A stretch of DNA of 64,000 nt from Theionarchaea archaeon (GTDB taxonomy: Archaea; Methanobacteriota_B; Thermococci; Methanofastidiosales; SZ-28-30): the NCBI GenBank assembly GCA_018992685.1, contig JACVGT010000025.1, forward strand, positions 1 to 64,000, in the 5' to 3' direction. The first letter of the stretch is position 1. Each line of letters begins with the position of its first letter. This document shows, piece by piece, positions 49,064-61,364 of this stretch. The position numbers and the translations under genes are program-made. The notes below the pieces were generated by a model. The model saw only the letters and a program-made list of their open reading frames with translations, was not told the origin of the DNA and did no database searches.

Positions 49064-50425
49064 TTGGCAGCAATCAAATTACTGAAAGTGAGAATGAAAA
49101 AAGGAAAAGTTGTTAGGGATCAAAACAAGTTAACTCAAGCCGAGGGAGCGCTTCTGAAGTTGGTGTTAAGAGCCCACCAAAACATTTATAAAGGGCAGGT
49201 GGTTCCAGGGTGTATGTTGTATGACTTTGACCGCCGCCTTGAAAGCATGAAAAAAAAGATAAGGGGGCTTGAGGAAAAAGAGAATGCTGAGATCATCTTG
49301 AAGTTTCTCAATCAGCTCTTTGCAGAAGGGTTGTCAAAGCCCAGGGTCTTGAAGTATGCCACTCATCTCAAAGTGATATCAGAGAAAATGGGCAAGAACT
49401 TCTCAGAGATAGAAAAGGATGATCTAATTTGGTATTTATCAGAGTTGGAACAATCTGACTATTCTGCTCAAACAAAAAGAGACTACAAGGTGGTTCTCAA
49501 ACGATTCTTTCCATACATTGGGAAAGGGGAGCTGGTATCGGATATAAAGACGACTTTAAGAGGAAATAAGAAGACACTGCCAGAGGAGCTACTAACAAAG
49601 AAGGATGTGGAAACATTGATTGAGGCTGCAAAACATCCTCGAGATAAGGCTCTCATCGGCATTCTGTATGAGGGAGGATTGAGGATAGGAGAACTGACAA
49701 GTCTCAAGATTAAGAATGTGCAATTTGATGAACATGGTGCTGTCTTAAAGGTTCGGGGTAAAACGGGGGAACGACGGGTAAGAGTTGTGTTGTTTGCTTC
49801 TTCACTGGCAAAATGGATGGAAATGCATCCTGAGGGCGACAACAAGGAAGCACCCCTCTGGGTTAATCTGTCGAATAATTACAGGAAAAAGGGAATAACA
49901 TATGAAGGGTTATACCAGAAGCTCAAGAGGATTGCCAAGAAGGCAGGGATAAAGAAGAAGTTGAATTTTCACAATTTCAGGCATTCCAGGGCCACCCACC
50001 TGGCTCAGCAATTGACAGAGGCCCAGATGAACGTGTACTTTGGGTGGGTCCAGGGAAGTGATATGCCAGCTACATATGTGCACTTGAGTGGGAGAGATGT
50101 TGATGACAGGATCCTAGAGATCCATGGAGTGAAACCCAAAGACAACGACAAGGATGACCAGTTAAAACCTCAGGTGTGCCCCCGGTGCAAGTACATCAAT
50201 TCACCTGTTAGCCGATATTGTGGAAGGTGTGGGACAGTCCTTGATGAGAAGGAACGATTGAGAATGGAGATGGAGAGCAGGGGATTAACGAAGGGCTTCC
50301 CAGATATAGGTGTTGAGGATGCTGGGGTATTGGAGGGGATGAAGAAGTTCAGAGATGTGCTGGAATTGCTTGAGAAGCATCCGGATCTGTTCAAGAAAAT
50401 GAGAACACTGCTGGAAGGGACGTGA
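49064..50425 (+). CDS. tyrosine recombinase/integrase with C-terminal zinc ribbon
   Basis: A 453-residue Xer/integrase-family protein. An N-terminal helical extension is followed by a SAM-like core-binding domain (about 75-165) and the catalytic domain: Arg207 (YEGGLRIGEL), Lys233 (GKTGERR), His303-x-x-Arg306 (HNFRHSRA), Trp328 in the His/Trp position and the nucleophile Tyr338 (TYVHLS). All active-site residues are present. After it comes a zinc ribbon CPRCKYINSPVSRYCGRCG (372-390) and a helical tail. This build is common among archaeal integrative elements. TTG start set by the TATA-like element at 49033. Confidence 0.9.
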   Translation: MAAIKLLKVRMKKGKVVRDQNKLTQAEGALLKLVLRAHQNIYKGQVVPGCMLYDFDRRLESMKKKIRGLEEKENAEIILKFLNQLFAEGLSKPRVLKYATHLKVISEKMGKNFSEIEKDDLIWYLSELEQSDYSAQTKRDYKVVLKRFFPYIGKGELVSDIKTTLRGNKKTLPEELLTKKDVETLIEAAKHPRDKALIGILYEGGLRIGELTSLKIKNVQFDEHGAVLKVRGKTGERRVRVVLFASSLAKWMEMHPEGDNKEAPLWVNLSNNYRKKGITYEGLYQKLKRIAKKAGIKKKLNFHNFRHSRATHLAQQLTEAQMNVYFGWVQGSDMPATYVHLSGRDVDDRILEIHGVKPKDNDKDDQLKPQVCPRCKYINSPVSRYCGRCGTVLDEKERLRMEMESRGLTKGFPDIGVEDAGVLEGMKKFRDVLELLEKHPDLFKKMRTLLEGT

Positions 50426-52786: not shown

Positions 52787-53018
52787 GAAGTACTCAAGAC
52801 TGTCAGATTTCTATCAATCTATCGATAGAGAGTAGCTGAACAGAGACTACTCAACACGGGCTGATAGAGAAAAATGCCATGGAGCACTGGATCAATGTCC
52901 TTATTCTCTTAATTCTGCTACTCATGCTTTATGATCTCACATTCGAAAGTTGTGCTGACTCATCAAGACAAGAAAAACGGAAAAATAAAAAAGGTGGCAG
53001 CATATGCTGCCTGCAAAA
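52787..53018. other. intergenic region
   Basis: About 230 bases with no supported gene. The left end of the 0.5-kb direct repeat begins at 52981. Confidence 0.35.
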
Positions 53019-53498
53019 TCACTGCTCAGGATCTGCCCCTAGTTCCATTATGGCCAGAGCCATACTCCTGACCACAATGTCACCGCTCATTGCGATCTTC
53101 TGGAGCCACTCCTTGTTCTCCTCGTCTGCCTCGTCAGTATCATCACTGCATTCCCACAAAGATTCATGAGCCCGGACATCCTTGACCAGACGCCTGTACA
53201 ACTGTGCTTCAGAGAGGATTTTCCTGAATTGTTTCACCAGCCAGATAAAGGTCTGATTCTTATTCCCTGTGCTGAAGTGGCTCATGATCTTGCGGAACTC
53301 CTTTTCCGTGTCTTTATCCACCACAAAACTGAGACGTTGTGTACGCATGGTATCCCATCCATAATTGAATATTGCAGCCATTGGTCTCACATGACGGCAC
53401 CGATGGAGTCAATGAGCATGTGCCAGAAGACACCGTTCTGGACGAAGATGGCAAACTGGACAATGAAGGGAGCATCAGGGTTTAAATTCAATTTCTCA
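52981..53498. repeat. 0.5-kb direct repeat, copy 1
   Basis: Highly similar to 54988-55521 in the same orientation. It carries a ribbon-helix-helix gene and the last about 35 codons of the membrane gene that precedes it. It breaks off inside that gene at 53498. Confidence 0.9.
53019..53348 (-). CDS. ribbon-helix-helix-like DNA-binding protein, copy 1
   Basis: About 109 residues. MRTQRLSFVVDKDTEKEFRK is a beta strand plus helix, then STGNKNQTFIWLVKQFRKIL is the second helix, together the MetJ/Arc ribbon-helix-helix layout. A charged C-terminal half ends VVRSMALAIMELGADPEQ. The start at 53348 is the same Met as in copy 2; the open frame upstream enters the truncated membrane gene. This copy appears intact, unlike the one at 55094. 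Confidence 0.6.
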   Translation of the reverse strand: MRTQRLSFVVDKDTEKEFRKIMSHFSTGNKNQTFIWLVKQFRKILSEAQLYRRLVKDVRAHESLWECSDDTDEADEENKEWLQKIAMSGDIVVRSMALAIMELGADPEQ

Positions 53499-54987: not shown

Positions 54988-55521
54988 AAAAATAAAAAAG
55001 GTGGCAGCATATGCTGCCTGCAAAATCACTGCTCAGGATCTGCCCCTAGTTCCATTATGGCCAGAGCCATACTCCTGACCACAATGTCACCGCTCATTGC
55101 GATCTTCTGGAGCCACTCCTTGTTCTCCTCGTATCCTGGTCATCTGACTCTGCCTCTTCAGTGTCATCAGTGCATTCCCACAGAGCTTCATGGGCCTGGA
55201 CATCCTTGACCAGACGCCTGTACAACTGTGCTTCAGAGAGGATTCTCCTGAATTGTTTTACCAGCCAGATAAAGGTCTGATTCTTGTTTCCTGTGCTGAA
55301 GTGGCTCATGATCTTGCGGAACTCCTTTTCCGTGTCTTTGTCCACCACAAAACTGAGACGTTGTGTGCGCATGGTATCCCATCCATGAGTTGTATGTTGT
55401 AATCATTGGTCTCACATGACGGCACCGATGGAGTCAATGAGCATGTGCCAGAAGACACCGTTCTGGACGAAGATTGCGAACTGGACAATGAAAGGCGCAT
55501 CAGGGTTCAAGTTCAATTTCT
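54988..55521. repeat. 0.5-kb direct repeat, copy 2
   Basis: Matches 52981-53498 with scattered substitutions and one insertion of 17 bases at about 55136-55152. It lies at the 3' end of the SGLVRDA/S-layer-like operon, which is therefore probably the parental locus. Confidence 0.9.
55094..55372 (-). CDS. ribbon-helix-helix-like protein, copy 2, C-terminus frameshifted
   Basis: The first about 75 residues match copy 1 (MRTQRLSFVVDKDTEKEFRK...LYRRLVKDVQAHEALWEC). A 17-base insertion relative to copy 1 shifts the frame, so the protein ends DDQDTRRTRSGSRRSQ. The original C-terminal codons for EENKEWLQKIAMSGDIVVRS and MALAIMELGADPEQ remain intact in another frame down to about 55024. The DNA-binding half is intact. 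Last gene of the operon read from 57326. Confidence 0.65.
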   Translation of the reverse strand: MRTQRLSFVVDKDTEKEFRKIMSHFSTGNKNQTFIWLVKQFRRILSEAQLYRRLVKDVQAHEALWECTDDTEEAESDDQDTRRTRSGSRRSQ

Positions 55522-55834
55522 CGTAGACCACGGGGATAATGACGAAAGCAACGACAGCAGAGAGGATCACCTCAGGGATGCTGACGGCTGGGTTTAGAGT
55601 TCCAGATCTGAACTGCATGATGGCTGAACTGAGTAGGACACCCACAAAGGCTCCAAGATACATGAGGACCTGGCGCAGCACAGTGAGGTAAGGGAGATCA
55701 TCAAGTTCAGGTGCATCCAGTTCTTCAGTCTCCTGGTATGCAGCTGCCATGGTGCCATTATGCAGAGAGCCACCGTTGTTATTCTCCCATGCTTTTCTCA
55801 CCCGTTCATTGAGATCAAAGTACTGCTTCATCAT
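55412..55834 (-). CDS. hypothetical membrane protein with two to three helices
   Basis: A 140-residue protein with an acidic soluble N-terminus (QETEELDAPELDDLPYL), then helices VLMYLGAFVGVLLSSAIM, PEVILSAVVAFVIIPVVY and IVQFAIFVQNGVFWHMLI. It overlaps the upstream S-layer-like gene by 4 nt. Its last 35 codons are duplicated at 53387-53500. No family recognised. Confidence 0.6.
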   Translation of the reverse strand: MMKQYFDLNERVRKAWENNNGGSLHNGTMAAAYQETEELDAPELDDLPYLTVLRQVLMYLGAFVGVLLSSAIMQFRSGTLNPAVSIPEVILSAVVAFVIIPVVYEKLNLNPDAPFIVQFAIFVQNGVFWHMLIDSIGAVM

Positions 55835-56669: not shown

Positions 56670-57326
56670 TTAAGGGACTAGCCCCGAATCGCGCACCAGT
56701 CCGGAGGCATCTCTGACAAGGCCTGAAGCATCTCGTACGAGACCAGAAGCCTGGCCTGCCAGTAGTATAACGTCTTCAGTCTCTGCGTAGGCTACCTGGT
56801 TCTCCAGTTGTCCCGCTCTCTTTTCGATCTCATCTGCTCTCTTGATTTGCGATTCAATTTTCTCTGTAGAATTACCTCTCACCAGTCCTGAGGCATTGCG
56901 TACCAGACTGGATGCATCCCTCACGAGACCGGAGGCATCTTTTACCAGACTGGATACGTCCTGTACCAATGCTGAGGGATCTGCAGTCTCTGCCAACGTA
57001 ATAACACGTCTCACATACCGTGAAAATTGGACAGTCCCTTTTGATAGATTCTGGACAGTCTCAGTCAATCTCCGGTAAGAACAAGCAGTCTCATCATCTG
57101 TGACCAGTCTGGATGAATCTCTCACGAGACCTGAGGCATCCCTCACTAATCCAGAGGCATCCCGAACCAATCCAGAGGCATTCCTTACAAGCCCAGATGC
57201 GGAAGGTCTTACCTTTCCGCAGTCCAGAGCGGCAGTACTTTCACGTACTGCTTCATCGAGCTCCAGGATAGCATTATCTGTATCCTGGACAGTCCTAATT
57301 TCAATTACGACTATATCCGTTCGCAT
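56670..57326 (-). CDS. SGLVRDA heptad-repeat protein
   Basis: A 218-residue protein with three clusters of a seven-residue repeat (A/S)SGLVR(D/N): about residues 43-75, 122-150 and 193-216, each unit encoded by 21 bp. The heptad spacing with Leu-Val at fixed positions suggests a coiled coil or amphipathic beta-helix. Between clusters lie ordinary helices (LTETVQNLSKGTVQFSRYVR; IESQIKRADEIEKRAGQLE). No signal peptide. SD-like GGAAGG precedes the ATG. First gene of a four-gene operon (57326 to 55094). No known family recognised. Confidence 0.65.
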   Translation of the reverse strand: MRTDIVVIEIRTVQDTDNAILELDEAVRESTAALDCGKVRPSASGLVRNASGLVRDASGLVRDASGLVRDSSRLVTDDETACSYRRLTETVQNLSKGTVQFSRYVRRVITLAETADPSALVQDVSSLVKDASGLVRDASSLVRNASGLVRGNSTEKIESQIKRADEIEKRAGQLENQVAYAETEDVILLAGQASGLVRDASGLVRDASGLVRDSGLVP

Positions 57327-57824: not shown

Positions 57825-59462
57825 CTAAAAAAAGTCGTTCAAACTCAATTGTTTCTCTTTATGTATTCTGAGGTCCCGCCTTGTAGGAATAGCTGATGGA
57901 ATACATAAGAAGTAAATCTCTCTTCTTCTTTTTGCATTTCCAGTGTATACTAACCAATTCATTAACGTTCTAGTATTTTCTGGAATTGAAGAATCACCAT
58001 ACACTCTCAGACCCGCTCGTTTTCTTTCTTCTTGAATCAGATGCTGTATTTTCTTAGGATTCAAACCTTTGTCCTCAGAGAGATTATCATAAATAGTTCT
58101 GTATAACTTCACCGTTTTCAGTGCCTGTTCATGAAAGATCTTTTTCTTTGTGAATTCATCGGAATCTGCGAATATGCTCCCCAAGTCGGTAATCCTCACA
58201 TAACTCATAAAAGGAGATTCTGTGAATCCTAACGTATCCGAACATTTCCGTTCATGGTGAATATTTTCTTTATGTAGAGTGTTCTTTAGAGTATCAATTG
58301 TCGTCAATCCCCCATGATAAGCTACTGCTTCAACAAATCTGACAATTGGGAGCGCGTCTGCATTAGGTACATAAGGCATCTTCGTTGGAGAGACACCTTC
58401 AGTTTCTTTAGGTTTCACTCTCAATCCAAAATCGAATGCTGTTTCTTTTTCAGCAAAATCTTTGTAAATATCCGGACCGATTCTTCTACTTCTGAATTTC
58501 AGGGGAAATCCATATCTTGACGTTCCTGTAGAATCATCCTTCTTCAGGACATTAATTTGAGAAAGTTTCTCAAGAGCGTCTTTTATCCATTCACTATTTA
58601 GATCATTTCCTGAAATTGTCAAAGGTTTCAAACTCCTTATTCTTTCCATTAGTTCTTCACGAGATAAATACAAGAATTCTTCTTTCCTATATTCTCCTCT
58701 TTCAACTAAGGACTCCAAACAGGGAATGATCATTTCCAGTATAAATTTCATTGTATATTCTACAGCTGGTGGTTTTTGTGAAACAAAATACGTTTTCTTA
58801 CCAAGTAGTAATATTCTCTCTGAATAAAAGTTTCGCTGTTGGCTAATAAGAGGACAAAGAATCTCACCCCTTACATGATTGATGTAAAGACCATCCTTGT
58901 TCCGTTTATCTTTAGTACAAAAATACCATAGGCTGAAATCATGAGGAGAATTTTTGAGAAAATCTAACTGCTGATAGTTTCTTTCTAGGAATTCAATTAC
59001 ACTGCCATAATCGTGTTCACTCACAATCAGCCAGACTTCGTGTCTATCGAATTCTTTCATTTCCTGGAAATATTTTTTCAAGTCACTTAGTCTATTTAGC
59101 ATATTTGCTTCGAAATCAGCAGAATTTCTGTTTGGTAATGACGACTTTATCTCTATGAGAATCCCCTTTCTTCTTGAACCGTATGCAAAAGTAAGATCCG
59201 GGGTTTTTGGATCTTCATCTTCATTCATAGGATTGATTTTAATACTTTCCCCTAAGAAAGAAATTTCATCATCCATAGAACTAAGTTTAGGTATTTCTTC
59301 TGCTAACATTTCTGAAATCATAACACAGTACTCATAATCTGTACATTTCTTTCTTATTTCATTTTCTCTTTTTTTTATTACTTTTTGTAACTCTCCCTCA
59401 TCAAGTTCATTTTCTCTTCCTTTTTGATCCTCATCATCATTTGTTTTCATTAAATCACTCAT
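57825..59462 (-). CDS. PD-(D/E)XK-like nuclease-domain protein of unknown system
   Basis: A 545-residue protein. After an acidic N-terminus and a helix (CVMISEMLAEEIPKL), it shows PDLTFAYGSRR (Asp89) and ILIEIKSS (Glu104-x-Lys106), the PD...ExK metal-binding core of restriction-endonuclease-like folds. A signature helix (NMLNRLSDLKKYFQEMKEF) follows. The C-terminal half contains winged-helix-like stretches (RFVEAVAYHGGLTTIDTLKN) and a basic end. It overlaps the upstream unknown gene by 8 nt, forming a two-gene unit. Nuclease identity is inferred from motifs only; a defence role is a hypothesis. Confidence 0.6.
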   Translation of the reverse strand: MSDLMKTNDDEDQKGRENELDEGELQKVIKKRENEIRKKCTDYEYCVMISEMLAEEIPKLSSMDDEISFLGESIKINPMNEDEDPKTPDLTFAYGSRRKGILIEIKSSLPNRNSADFEANMLNRLSDLKKYFQEMKEFDRHEVWLIVSEHDYGSVIEFLERNYQQLDFLKNSPHDFSLWYFCTKDKRNKDGLYINHVRGEILCPLISQQRNFYSERILLLGKKTYFVSQKPPAVEYTMKFILEMIIPCLESLVERGEYRKEEFLYLSREELMERIRSLKPLTISGNDLNSEWIKDALEKLSQINVLKKDDSTGTSRYGFPLKFRSRRIGPDIYKDFAEKETAFDFGLRVKPKETEGVSPTKMPYVPNADALPIVRFVEAVAYHGGLTTIDTLKNTLHKENIHHERKCSDTLGFTESPFMSYVRITDLGSIFADSDEFTKKKIFHEQALKTVKLYRTIYDNLSEDKGLNPKKIQHLIQEERKRAGLRVYGDSSIPENTRTLMNWLVYTGNAKRRREIYFLCIPSAIPTRRDLRIHKEKQLSLNDFF

Positions 59463-60573
59463 CGAGAAGAGATATTTCGGCTACTCCTATTGCCATTTGG
59501 ATTTCTTCAACGATGTCAGAAAGAGATGAAGGGGAACATCTTGTTTGAGGGACAATTGCGATTTTGTTGTTTAAAGCATTGATAGAAAAAGTTGAGTAGT
59601 CTTTGAAATCAACCACATTAGCTGAAAAATATGGATTTGAAGACTGATTGATGGTATAAGATAAGAATTTCATTTTCTCAAGAACGAAGGTCAATCTCTC
59701 TAACTGTGACTCATTTAAATCATTCTTGAATTTCAATACAATGGGAGATAATTCAATTTGCTTTTTTTGATTGTTGTAACGTCTTTCTCTGTTAAGATAA
59801 GACTTGTTTGTCTTTGCAAATGTCTCGATACAATTCCTCAAAACGTCGGCCCAGAAATAATCCAGCGCTCCGGAATACAGAGTAAATGATTTGTCTTTTC
59901 TCTTATATCTAAATCTCATAATTGTCTCTCCTCCCTTCCCAGAACAATCTATGATTATCCTATTAATGACTTTCCCGTAAAGCTCATTTTCTATTCCTTT
60001 TCTGAATTCAGAATAATTCTTATCGGCAGATTTGCCCCTCAATTGAACTGATGAATATTGCGATTTATTTTTCAACGGGTCGTAAATTACACTTTGAACT
60101 TCAGTAACATAGATTTCGCCATAAATTTCTTTGAGTCTGTCAATCATCTCAATAATACCTTTGTTGTCCAAATGAACTCTATACAAATAAGGATATGAAT
60201 ATTCTATCCATTTCAGAAGAGTTACAGACAAGGAATTCTTCAGGATTTCATCACTTAGAAACATATAAAAGTTTTTCTTGATTCTTACTACCAATGAAAT
60301 AGATGCTACTTCCTTTTCGGTGTTCACGACTATGAGTGAATAAATGTCATTCGAAATTTTGCTAGACGCTATTCTAAATGTTTTTCTATTTGAAATATTC
60401 TGCCAGTTTTCTATGTCGTATTTCGAAAAGCAGAAAAAGAATTTCAATCCCGTTCTGGTATTGTTGACAAAGTTTTCATTGAAAAACGATTTCAATTCAT
60501 CAAAATTAGCTATATTCTCAATTTCATTCTGGAATTCTCTTATCAAGGAGCCTGGTGTTGCAGGTACTAACAT
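59455..60573 (-). CDS. unknown protein paired with the nuclease-like gene
   Basis: A 372-residue alpha/beta protein with AT-rich codon use. It has many short strands (YSLIVVNTEKEVASISLVVR, GEIYVTEVQSVIYD) and a basic patch (RFRYKRKDKSF). No catalytic signature recognised. The ATG at 60573 has an SD GAGGTGAG (60580-60587) about 6 nt upstream. It is first gene of the unit and translationally coupled to the PD-(D/E)XK-like protein. It could be a specificity or sensor subunit. Confidence 0.5.
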   Translation of the reverse strand: MLVPATPGSLIREFQNEIENIANFDELKSFFNENFVNNTRTGLKFFFCFSKYDIENWQNISNRKTFRIASSKISNDIYSLIVVNTEKEVASISLVVRIKKNFYMFLSDEILKNSLSVTLLKWIEYSYPYLYRVHLDNKGIIEMIDRLKEIYGEIYVTEVQSVIYDPLKNKSQYSSVQLRGKSADKNYSEFRKGIENELYGKVINRIIIDCSGKGGETIMRFRYKRKDKSFTLYSGALDYFWADVLRNCIETFAKTNKSYLNRERRYNNQKKQIELSPIVLKFKNDLNESQLERLTFVLEKMKFLSYTINQSSNPYFSANVVDFKDYSTFSINALNNKIAIVPQTRCSPSSLSDIVEEIQMAIGVAEISLLDE

Positions 60574-60587
60574 TCTATTCTCACCTC

Positions 60588-61057
60588 TTTATGTAATGAA
60601 GATGTCTCTATTATTAAGCTTTTTGGAATTCTTTCATCCATACTATCAGCTTCATGGATATCCCTCCGAGAATCATGCCCTCTTTTGGTCTTTTTTCTTT
60701 ATAACCTTATCTACTACTAACTCCTATCACGATATCACCTCCTTTCTTTGCTCCTATGACCAGTACAACCACCACTGTTTCCTGGTGAAGAGCTCCCGTG
60801 AATGCCACGCACTGAATGTGGTGAGCTGCCTCCCTGCCACCTGTCGCGTTGTTGAAATGGAGAATCACTTATTGATATTCGTTAATACGGTGTCCGTAGC
60901 TGTCCTGCAGAAGTTGATGATCCTGATGATGAGCATGAAGACCTCAGGACTACTGGATGACTTGAGGTATGCATCAGTGTTGGAAGTGGCTCACCAACCT
61001 GTACGATTGGGATCTCCTGCAGAAGAGGATAGGAACAATAGAAAAGAACGTACTGAT
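60588..61057. other. mosaic region with short competing frames
   Basis: About 470 bases between the nuclease unit and the transposase fragment. A minus-strand GTG frame (60707-60868; HFNNATGGREAAHHIQCVAF...) and plus-strand frames each read partly like protein, but none is supported by start signals. Best read as scrambled remnants around an IS scar. Confidence 0.35.
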
Positions 61058-61364
61058 TGAAATACAGGAACCTGACTTCATGGATCCTCCTCCATAACGT
61101 GGTGTAATCTGCAGATGTCAATCCTTCTATATACTGCGACAACTTTTCTAAAATGCCTTCTAACTGTCTATAGGGTACATTGAATACTGTTTTCATCAGG
61201 ACAGTATATGCTATGAATGACTGGGGAAATGCAAAAGGGCTACCTCGTTTATTCACATTCATCGTTTGGAGTTCTTCATTCCAATGTTCAATAAAATCCA
61301 TTGTTAAGTAAAATTCTCCTCTTCTTACCAGTTTCTTGTTATATTCTTTCCAATTTCTGGTCAT
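61058..61364 (-). pseudogene. truncated transposase (IS5/ISH-like), 5' part only
   Basis: The first about 100 codons (MTRNWKEYNKKLVRRGEFYL, FIEHWNEELQTMN, KRGSPFAFPQSFIAY, VPYRQLEGILEKLSQYIEGL, SADYTTLWRRIHE) match the N-terminal domain of a common archaeal/bacterial DDE transposase that continues to 'DASGIK'. After RRIHEV the sequence becomes unrelated and Ser-rich (open to 60882). No catalytic Asp is left, so the element is dead. Confidence 0.75.

Follow-up and report, generated by a model that had tools for sequence, protein, structure and literature searches.

A two-gene module of archaeal mobile and defense islands, with a nuclease-like protein that ends in a predicted sliding-clamp-binding motif

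Introduction

What kind of system might be formed by two overlapping genes that lie in an AT-rich archaeal island and resemble nothing that has been named? The window considered here, a stretch of 64,000 nucleotides from a Theionarchaea archaeon (GenBank assembly GCA_018992685.1, contig JACVGT010000025.1), harbors such a pair, referred to as genes A and B. A previous sequence-only reading of this DNA had regarded the pair as a candidate defense system, in which B is a restriction-like nuclease. The pair is described below together with its relatives, which are found in archaea and on plasmids of Arthrobacter.

The gene pair and its island

The features of the window to which the text refers are as follows.

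59455..60573, minus strand: gene A (P0002), first of the pair, an open reading frame of 372 aa that belongs to an undescribed family
57825..59462, minus strand: gene B (P0001), second of the pair, 545 aa, PD-(D/E)XK nuclease-like
60578..60588, minus strand: Shine-Dalgarno (SD)-like sequence AGAGGTGAG, directly 5' of the gene A ATG
59145..59201, minus strand: codons of B residues 88-106 (PDLTFAYGSRRKGILIEIK), with the candidate active site D89, E104, and K106
57939..58205, minus strand: AAA_assoc_C (PF09821) winged-helix-type domain, B residues 420-508 (E 5.2e-7)
57828..57851, minus strand: QLSLNDFF at the B C-terminus, a predicted sliding-clamp (PCNA) binding motif of the form Q-x-x-L-x-x-F-F
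60882..61364, minus strand: truncated DDE transposase (DDE_Tnp_1_5, 1.6e-15), island context outside the module
49064..50425, plus strand: phage-type integrase whose C-terminus carries a zinc ribbon; island context

The two genes overlap in the window by 8 nt (ATGAGTGA), and through this overlap B is translationally coupled to A. The pair has a GC content of 34.1%, against 45.0% for the window. In these respects the sequence-only reading was accurate, as it was in placing two AT-rich open reading frames in an island beside a dead transposase. The same holds for the SD-like sequence that it saw: this is found before A, no well-spaced SD precedes B, and the start of B falls inside the 3' end of A, so that transcription of the two genes as one coupled transcript is likely.

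The surrounding DNA has several features of its own. The phage-type integrase possibly drives the AT-richer island that extends over 45-62 kb of the window. A block of around 520 bp is found twice, at 52981-53497 and 54988-55522, where 145 nt are 100% identical and stretches of 253 nt and 133 nt are 92% identical; it carries two copies of a small gene on the minus strand (53019-53390 and 55094-55372). A 218-aa open reading frame at 56670-57326, also on the minus strand, consists mostly of the 7-residue repeat (N/D)ASGLVR and lies within a run of 21-nt repeats.

Searches of known families

The two genes are an undescribed pair and form a real family. Neither window protein was matched in PADLOC-DB 2.0.0 at E values up to 10, and the same library left unmatched the paralog from the same genome, the Thermococcales-like members (G084), and the Arthrobacter members. 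NCBIfam returned zero matches for the window A and B, and PHROGs returned matches at chance level only. The only Pfam match to either window protein is PF09821 in B (30.7 bits versus a cutoff of 27.6), which fits the winged-helix-like segments that the sequence-only reading had placed after the nuclease motif. This domain is also present in the paralogous B (36.4 bits, 9.3e-9), and it was not found in the haloarchaeal, Arthrobacter, and other B types that were scanned. When homologues of every type were scanned against Pfam, PF09821 was the only family to exceed its cutoff, and gene A matched no Pfam family in the window protein or in the homologues scanned. The G084 B has sub-threshold Pfam matches to PDDEXK_4 and BsuBI_PstI_RE. 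Searches of PDB sequences with two-row and 12-row profiles gave chance matches only, and a literature search, with subscription journals and preprints outside its coverage, found no paper describing the pair. The view that it corresponds to no named system is thus upheld.

Relatives and distribution

A second A+B pair is found on contig C1 of the same genome (L004:396-3009). The gene order is kept, the two genes overlap by 32 nt, and identity to the window proteins is 33% for A and 29% for B. Among the 115 genomes of the window phylum, one other is positive, the Thermococcales-like G084, in which A is followed by a B that is interrupted by the contig end and that contains the motif TPDIVF...LLIIEYK. 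A divergent gene adjoins this Thermococcales-like pair (L029:2213-3010), and by eye its product is like DUF3800 proteins.

More distant members came to light through plasmids. A weak gene A match (E 0.03) pointed to a plasmid of Arthrobacter on which the genes are ordered as in the window. Plasmid searches from Arthrobacter then gave members in Haloarcula marismortui pNG100, Halosegnis, Natrinema, and Halosimplex, and on another plasmid of Arthrobacter. Profile searches added an archaeon with 1.0 Mb (G231) and then two further genomes (G767 and G730). An earlier, pattern-seeded scan of genome contigs with A and B profiles had found none; the later profile search of genomes found many, with the pair present in 48 of the 391 haloarchaeal (Halobacteria) genomes sampled. 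Around 12% of the sampled haloarchaeal genomes therefore carry the pair, yet no model for it exists in the family libraries searched. More copies of types II and III are located on named haloarchaeal plasmids, and many copies across the family are plasmid-borne. The cultured haloarchaeon Halorubrum lacusprofundi harbors a pair with an intact catalytic triad and a QTRLGDY tail on its plasmid pHLAC01. Bacterial members are confined to the two Arthrobacter plasmids. Scans of viral contigs and of a phage collection with the A and B profiles found no relatives. Two sets of candidates were rejected: a match in G288 (E 2e-4), at a locus lacking an A-like gene plus B, and short matches in Thermococcales-like genomes (E 0.002-0.08), which, G084 excepted, vanished with a better profile.

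Linkage of the pair and the nature of gene A

Together, the C1 paralog, the Thermococcales-like genome, the haloarchaeal genomes and plasmids, and the two Arthrobacter plasmids provide 58 distinct A proteins. A B-type open reading frame lies directly downstream of A in all 58, with a gap of -32 to +6 nt, so the neighborhood survey bears out the expected co-occurrence of the two genes. Membership of the B set rested solely on location behind A, so the C-terminal motif described below played no part in its selection. Pairwise identities among A proteins track those among B proteins closely (r = 0.97, and 0.87 in pairs of less than 50% identity). A and B co-evolve and probably constitute one two-protein module. 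At one locus (L078:2596-3108) a type II B is broken after 171 residues and adjoins an intact A.

Within A, all 58 homologues share the invariant D322, and P342 is conserved in 95%. Structures were predicted with AlphaFold2 from single sequences, no alignment being used; the models are of too low a quality to count as evidence, and no conclusion is drawn from their structural matches. In the resulting model of A (pLDDT 38), residues 278-362 have the secondary structure order b-a-b4-a, and residues 272-371 align with the NRD of RnlA at a Z of around 6, one of many matches with Z of 5-9. A TBP-like fold of A found no support in a profile comparison with archaeal TBPs.

The catalytic motif of B

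The active-site motif of the PD-(D/E)XK superfamily, D...(D/E)-x-K, is present in P0001 as P88-D89...E104-I-K106 (PDLTF...ILIEIK), where the sequence-only reading had placed it, and in the C1 paralog, which retains D89, E104, and K106 along with the entire ILIEIKSSLPN stretch (PDLAFLCEDDFAILIEIK). The motif and the gene order go beyond chance, since these three residues are kept in a paralog of 29% identity and the order recurs in 58 of 58 loci. From the motif and its conservation, we infer that the window B belongs to the PD-(D/E)XK-type nucleases. The AlphaFold2 single-sequence model of B is poor (pLDDT 35), and Foldseek found nothing significant with it.

Across the family, the full D/E/K triad is found in 27 of 56 B proteins and is broken in the other 29. 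A triad of the D...(E/D)xK type is kept by the window B, the C1 paralog, G084, G231, the Halosegnis type, type II (VPNFDFLLWNLDGSVIFGEAKSSIP), and type III (EPNADAIFCNPDRNLALIVECKTSLS). In the majority of type I haloarchaeal B proteins, as in some others, either E and K or the complete set of three has been lost; the Arthrobacter proteins have GEIA. These losses are clade-specific and not random: the three residues disappear clade by clade and do not vary freely. With the triad broken in 29 of 56 proteins, a nuclease function cannot hold for B throughout the family. The term nuclease appears to fit about half of the family, the window protein included, and the remainder look like pseudo-nucleases. 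The restriction-like nuclease proposed in the sequence-only reading is therefore not fully supported across the family.

This pattern bears on a toxin-antitoxin or abortive infection system, in which B would be a DNA-cutting toxin of host replication forks and A an inhibitor released upon infection. Two tightly coupled, overlapping genes in an island would suit such an arrangement, and the RnlA toxin NRD is listed among the many matches to the low-confidence model of A residues 270-370. However, that match is non-specific and comes from a model with a pLDDT of 38, A exceeds the typical size of an antitoxin and is conserved as much as B, and triad-dead forms of B are retained alongside A, as would not be expected of a toxin. 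A toxin-antitoxin role is therefore quite improbable.

The C-terminal tail of B

The most informative feature of the pair is one that the sequence-only reading missed, namely the sliding-clamp-type motif at the C-terminus of B. The P0001 tail, QLSLNDFF, is by sequence a canonical PCNA-interacting peptide (PIP), and the endings of other B proteins include QSSLDDF, QTSLGQF, QPTIGEF, QTQLSEF, QSQLDEF, QTRLGDY, QSSLGDFG, and similar motifs. Of 56 B proteins, 39 have the PIP-box pattern Q-x-x-h-x-x-aromatic within their last 30 residues, whereas among 535 other proteins encoded in these regions the count is 14; the regular expression was composed after the sequences had been viewed, yet it is the textbook PIP consensus. 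In 2000 shuffles of the B tails, the pattern appeared on average in 1.6 and at most in 7. With clustering at 40% identity it dominates 13 of 19 B clusters, and at 30% identity it dominates 8 of 12.

Both Arthrobacter B proteins have a QLSLF or QPSLF tail in place of the PIP motif. Tails of this type bind the beta clamp of bacteria. With PIP in the archaea and a beta-clamp motif in the sole bacterial members, the tail appears, from these sequences, to match whichever clamp the host domain uses, as has been described for NucS/EndoMS (PMC8228993). Neither motif is present in 15 B proteins. For 7 of them, the partner A has a related xDFF/xDYF ending, a tail that is found in 14 of 56 A proteins and in 1 of 535 background proteins. 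Several other motif-less B proteins keep xxxL-x-D-F without the Q (e.g., EASLDDF and KTLSDF). The C1 paralog B has no clamp motif at its C-terminus; it stops around 25 residues before the end of P0001 would be reached, immediately before a DDE transposase gene.

On the strength of these motifs, the B tail is predicted to bind the sliding clamp. Since B usually ends in such a clamp-docking tag, the pair probably acts on DNA during replication, and it is most likely directed against viruses or other invading DNA. We give an even chance to the explanation that A and B constitute a replication-clamp-tethered two-protein nuclease module of mobile and defense islands that acts on foreign replicating DNA. 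In such a module, A and B would form one complex, and the C-terminal tail of B would dock on the sliding clamp, PCNA in archaea and the beta clamp in Arthrobacter. A would be the obligate partner, probably recognizing a state of DNA or protein that licenses B. The tethered complex would sample DNA under replication, with A sensing something foreign or abnormal, for instance the fork of a virus or plasmid, an unusual structure, or unmodified DNA, whereupon B would cut or block the replicating DNA. Those clades in which the triad has decayed and clamp docking is kept might employ the pair as a competitor for the clamp, as a roadblock, or as a recruiter of another nuclease. A bolder version, to which we assign slightly less than an even chance, is that of an undescribed immune system, spread among archaea and bacteria, whose two-protein nuclease complex rides on the clamp of its host and so patrols replication forks. 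This system would have taken on a beta-clamp motif in place of the PCNA one on crossing between domains, would attack or block virus and plasmid DNA under replication, and in some clades would serve as a non-cutting roadblock. If the clamp reading is true, the replication clamp would serve to recruit this nuclease module, itself carried in mobile and defense islands, and recruitment of this kind would offer a general route to replicating invader DNA without a recognition sequence.

A clamp-bound nuclease may also bring to mind an accessory module for DNA repair or fork maintenance, spread horizontally, that deals with host mismatches, flaps, or stalled forks in the manner of NucS. The PCNA-docked PD-(D/E)XK nucleases known so far are indeed repair enzymes (NucS), and replication or repair genes adjoin the pair in places, an example being the ATP-dependent DNA ligase next to the Arthrobacter J3.37 copy. 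Nevertheless, the patchy distribution seen both in haloarchaea and in the window phylum, where the other 114 genomes are negative except one, is unlike that of a housekeeping function, as are the plasmid and island locations and the restriction-type neighbors, and the triad has been lost across whole clades. A repair function appears somewhat unlikely on this evidence.

Genomic neighborhoods

The genes around the pair were assigned to Pfam and PADLOC families for 138 neighbors at 42 haloarchaeal and other loci; these raw tallies include 3 McrBC, 5 phage integrase, 2 resolvase, 2 Mrr (Mrr_cat), 4 IetA, 2 mads_2, 2 TFIIB, and 2 Cdc6 genes, together with 2 each of Eco57I, PglX, and type IIG. In Arthrobacter J3.37, the pair is followed by a methyltransferase and a helicase. 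On these uncontrolled counts, the setting of the family is one of defense and mobile islands, and a defensive role is suggested. The earlier defense interpretation thus gains restriction- and mobile-element-rich neighbors elsewhere in the family, while defense itself stays a deduction; overall, that reading was right in what it observed and is partly supported in how it interpreted it.

Two further observations concern the neighbors. Pentapeptide-repeat proteins recur as neighbors at L050/L053, L131 (by its annotation), and other haloarchaeal loci, and they account for 4 of the 138. At three loci (L102, L105, and L106), type III pairs are convergent to a conserved pair of AAA_5 and McrC-like genes, and the two pairs possibly make up one combined four-gene defense cassette.

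The abundance of plasmid copies, several of them beside ParA/ParB or Cdc6/Orc genes, would also be expected of a mobile-element factor that hijacks or occupies the host clamp for replication of the element, control of its copy number, or exclusion of rival plasmids. Against this, chromosomal copies exist, including two in one genome, and the neighbors vary from locus to locus with no single element backbone. We consider such a factor unlikely; a plasmid that excludes its rivals by cutting their forks would in any case be a form of the clamp-tethered module favored above.

The DDE transposase gene by the C1 copy, the transposase fragment by the window copy, and an ISH3-type transposase near the Halorubrum lacusprofundi copy could hint at a transposon accessory protein that, like TnsE, targets insertion to replication forks via the clamp. 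The window and C1 transposases, however, come from separate Pfam families, and the 25 commonest Pfam families assigned to the 138 neighbors at the 42 loci include no transposase. The pair has largely been seen already to recur without a transposase in the same element. Such an accessory role is highly improbable.

Comparison with known systems

The low-confidence model of A resembles RnlA (RNase LS) in that its residues 272-371 align with the NRD, but many unrelated folds outscore the NRD, sequence and profile searches lend no support, and nothing in A was matched to the HEPN or DBD region. With restriction endonucleases and the type IV systems McrBC and Mrr, the pair has in common PD-(D/E)XK chemistry (as judged for B by its motif), coupled genes, and residence in the same islands. 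It differs from them as a pair without a methylase or GTPase, with a clamp-type tail, and with no PADLOC restriction match.

The archaeal PIP-box clients of PCNA include the RFC large subunit, FEN1, and the polymerases. As in B, a Q-x-x-L-x-x-F/Y-(F) tail is located at or near their C-terminus. These clients, however, are encoded by housekeeping replication and repair genes, whereas the A+B pair is accessory and mobile.

NucS/EndoMS, which occurs in Archaea and Actinobacteria, is a clamp-associated mismatch endonuclease of the PD-(D/E)XK type whose tail carries a PIP or beta-clamp motif (PMC8228993). The likeness to B extends to the PD-(D/E)XK motif, to a C-terminal tail that in B is of the PIP type in archaea and of the beta-clamp type in Actinobacteria, and to the presence of both in the two host groups. 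In B, however, the nuclease motif is N-terminal and is followed by a long C-terminal part of winged-helix type; moreover, B always occurs with its partner A, is patchily distributed on plasmids and islands, and has often lost its triad. Membership of B in the NucS/EndoMS family was rejected, although the C-terminal clamp motif is shared, as the NucS profile left P0001 unmatched at E values up to 10 and likewise did not match the other B members. In its supposed mode of working, NucS/EndoMS is nonetheless the closest analogue of the pair, to which it is unrelated by profile.
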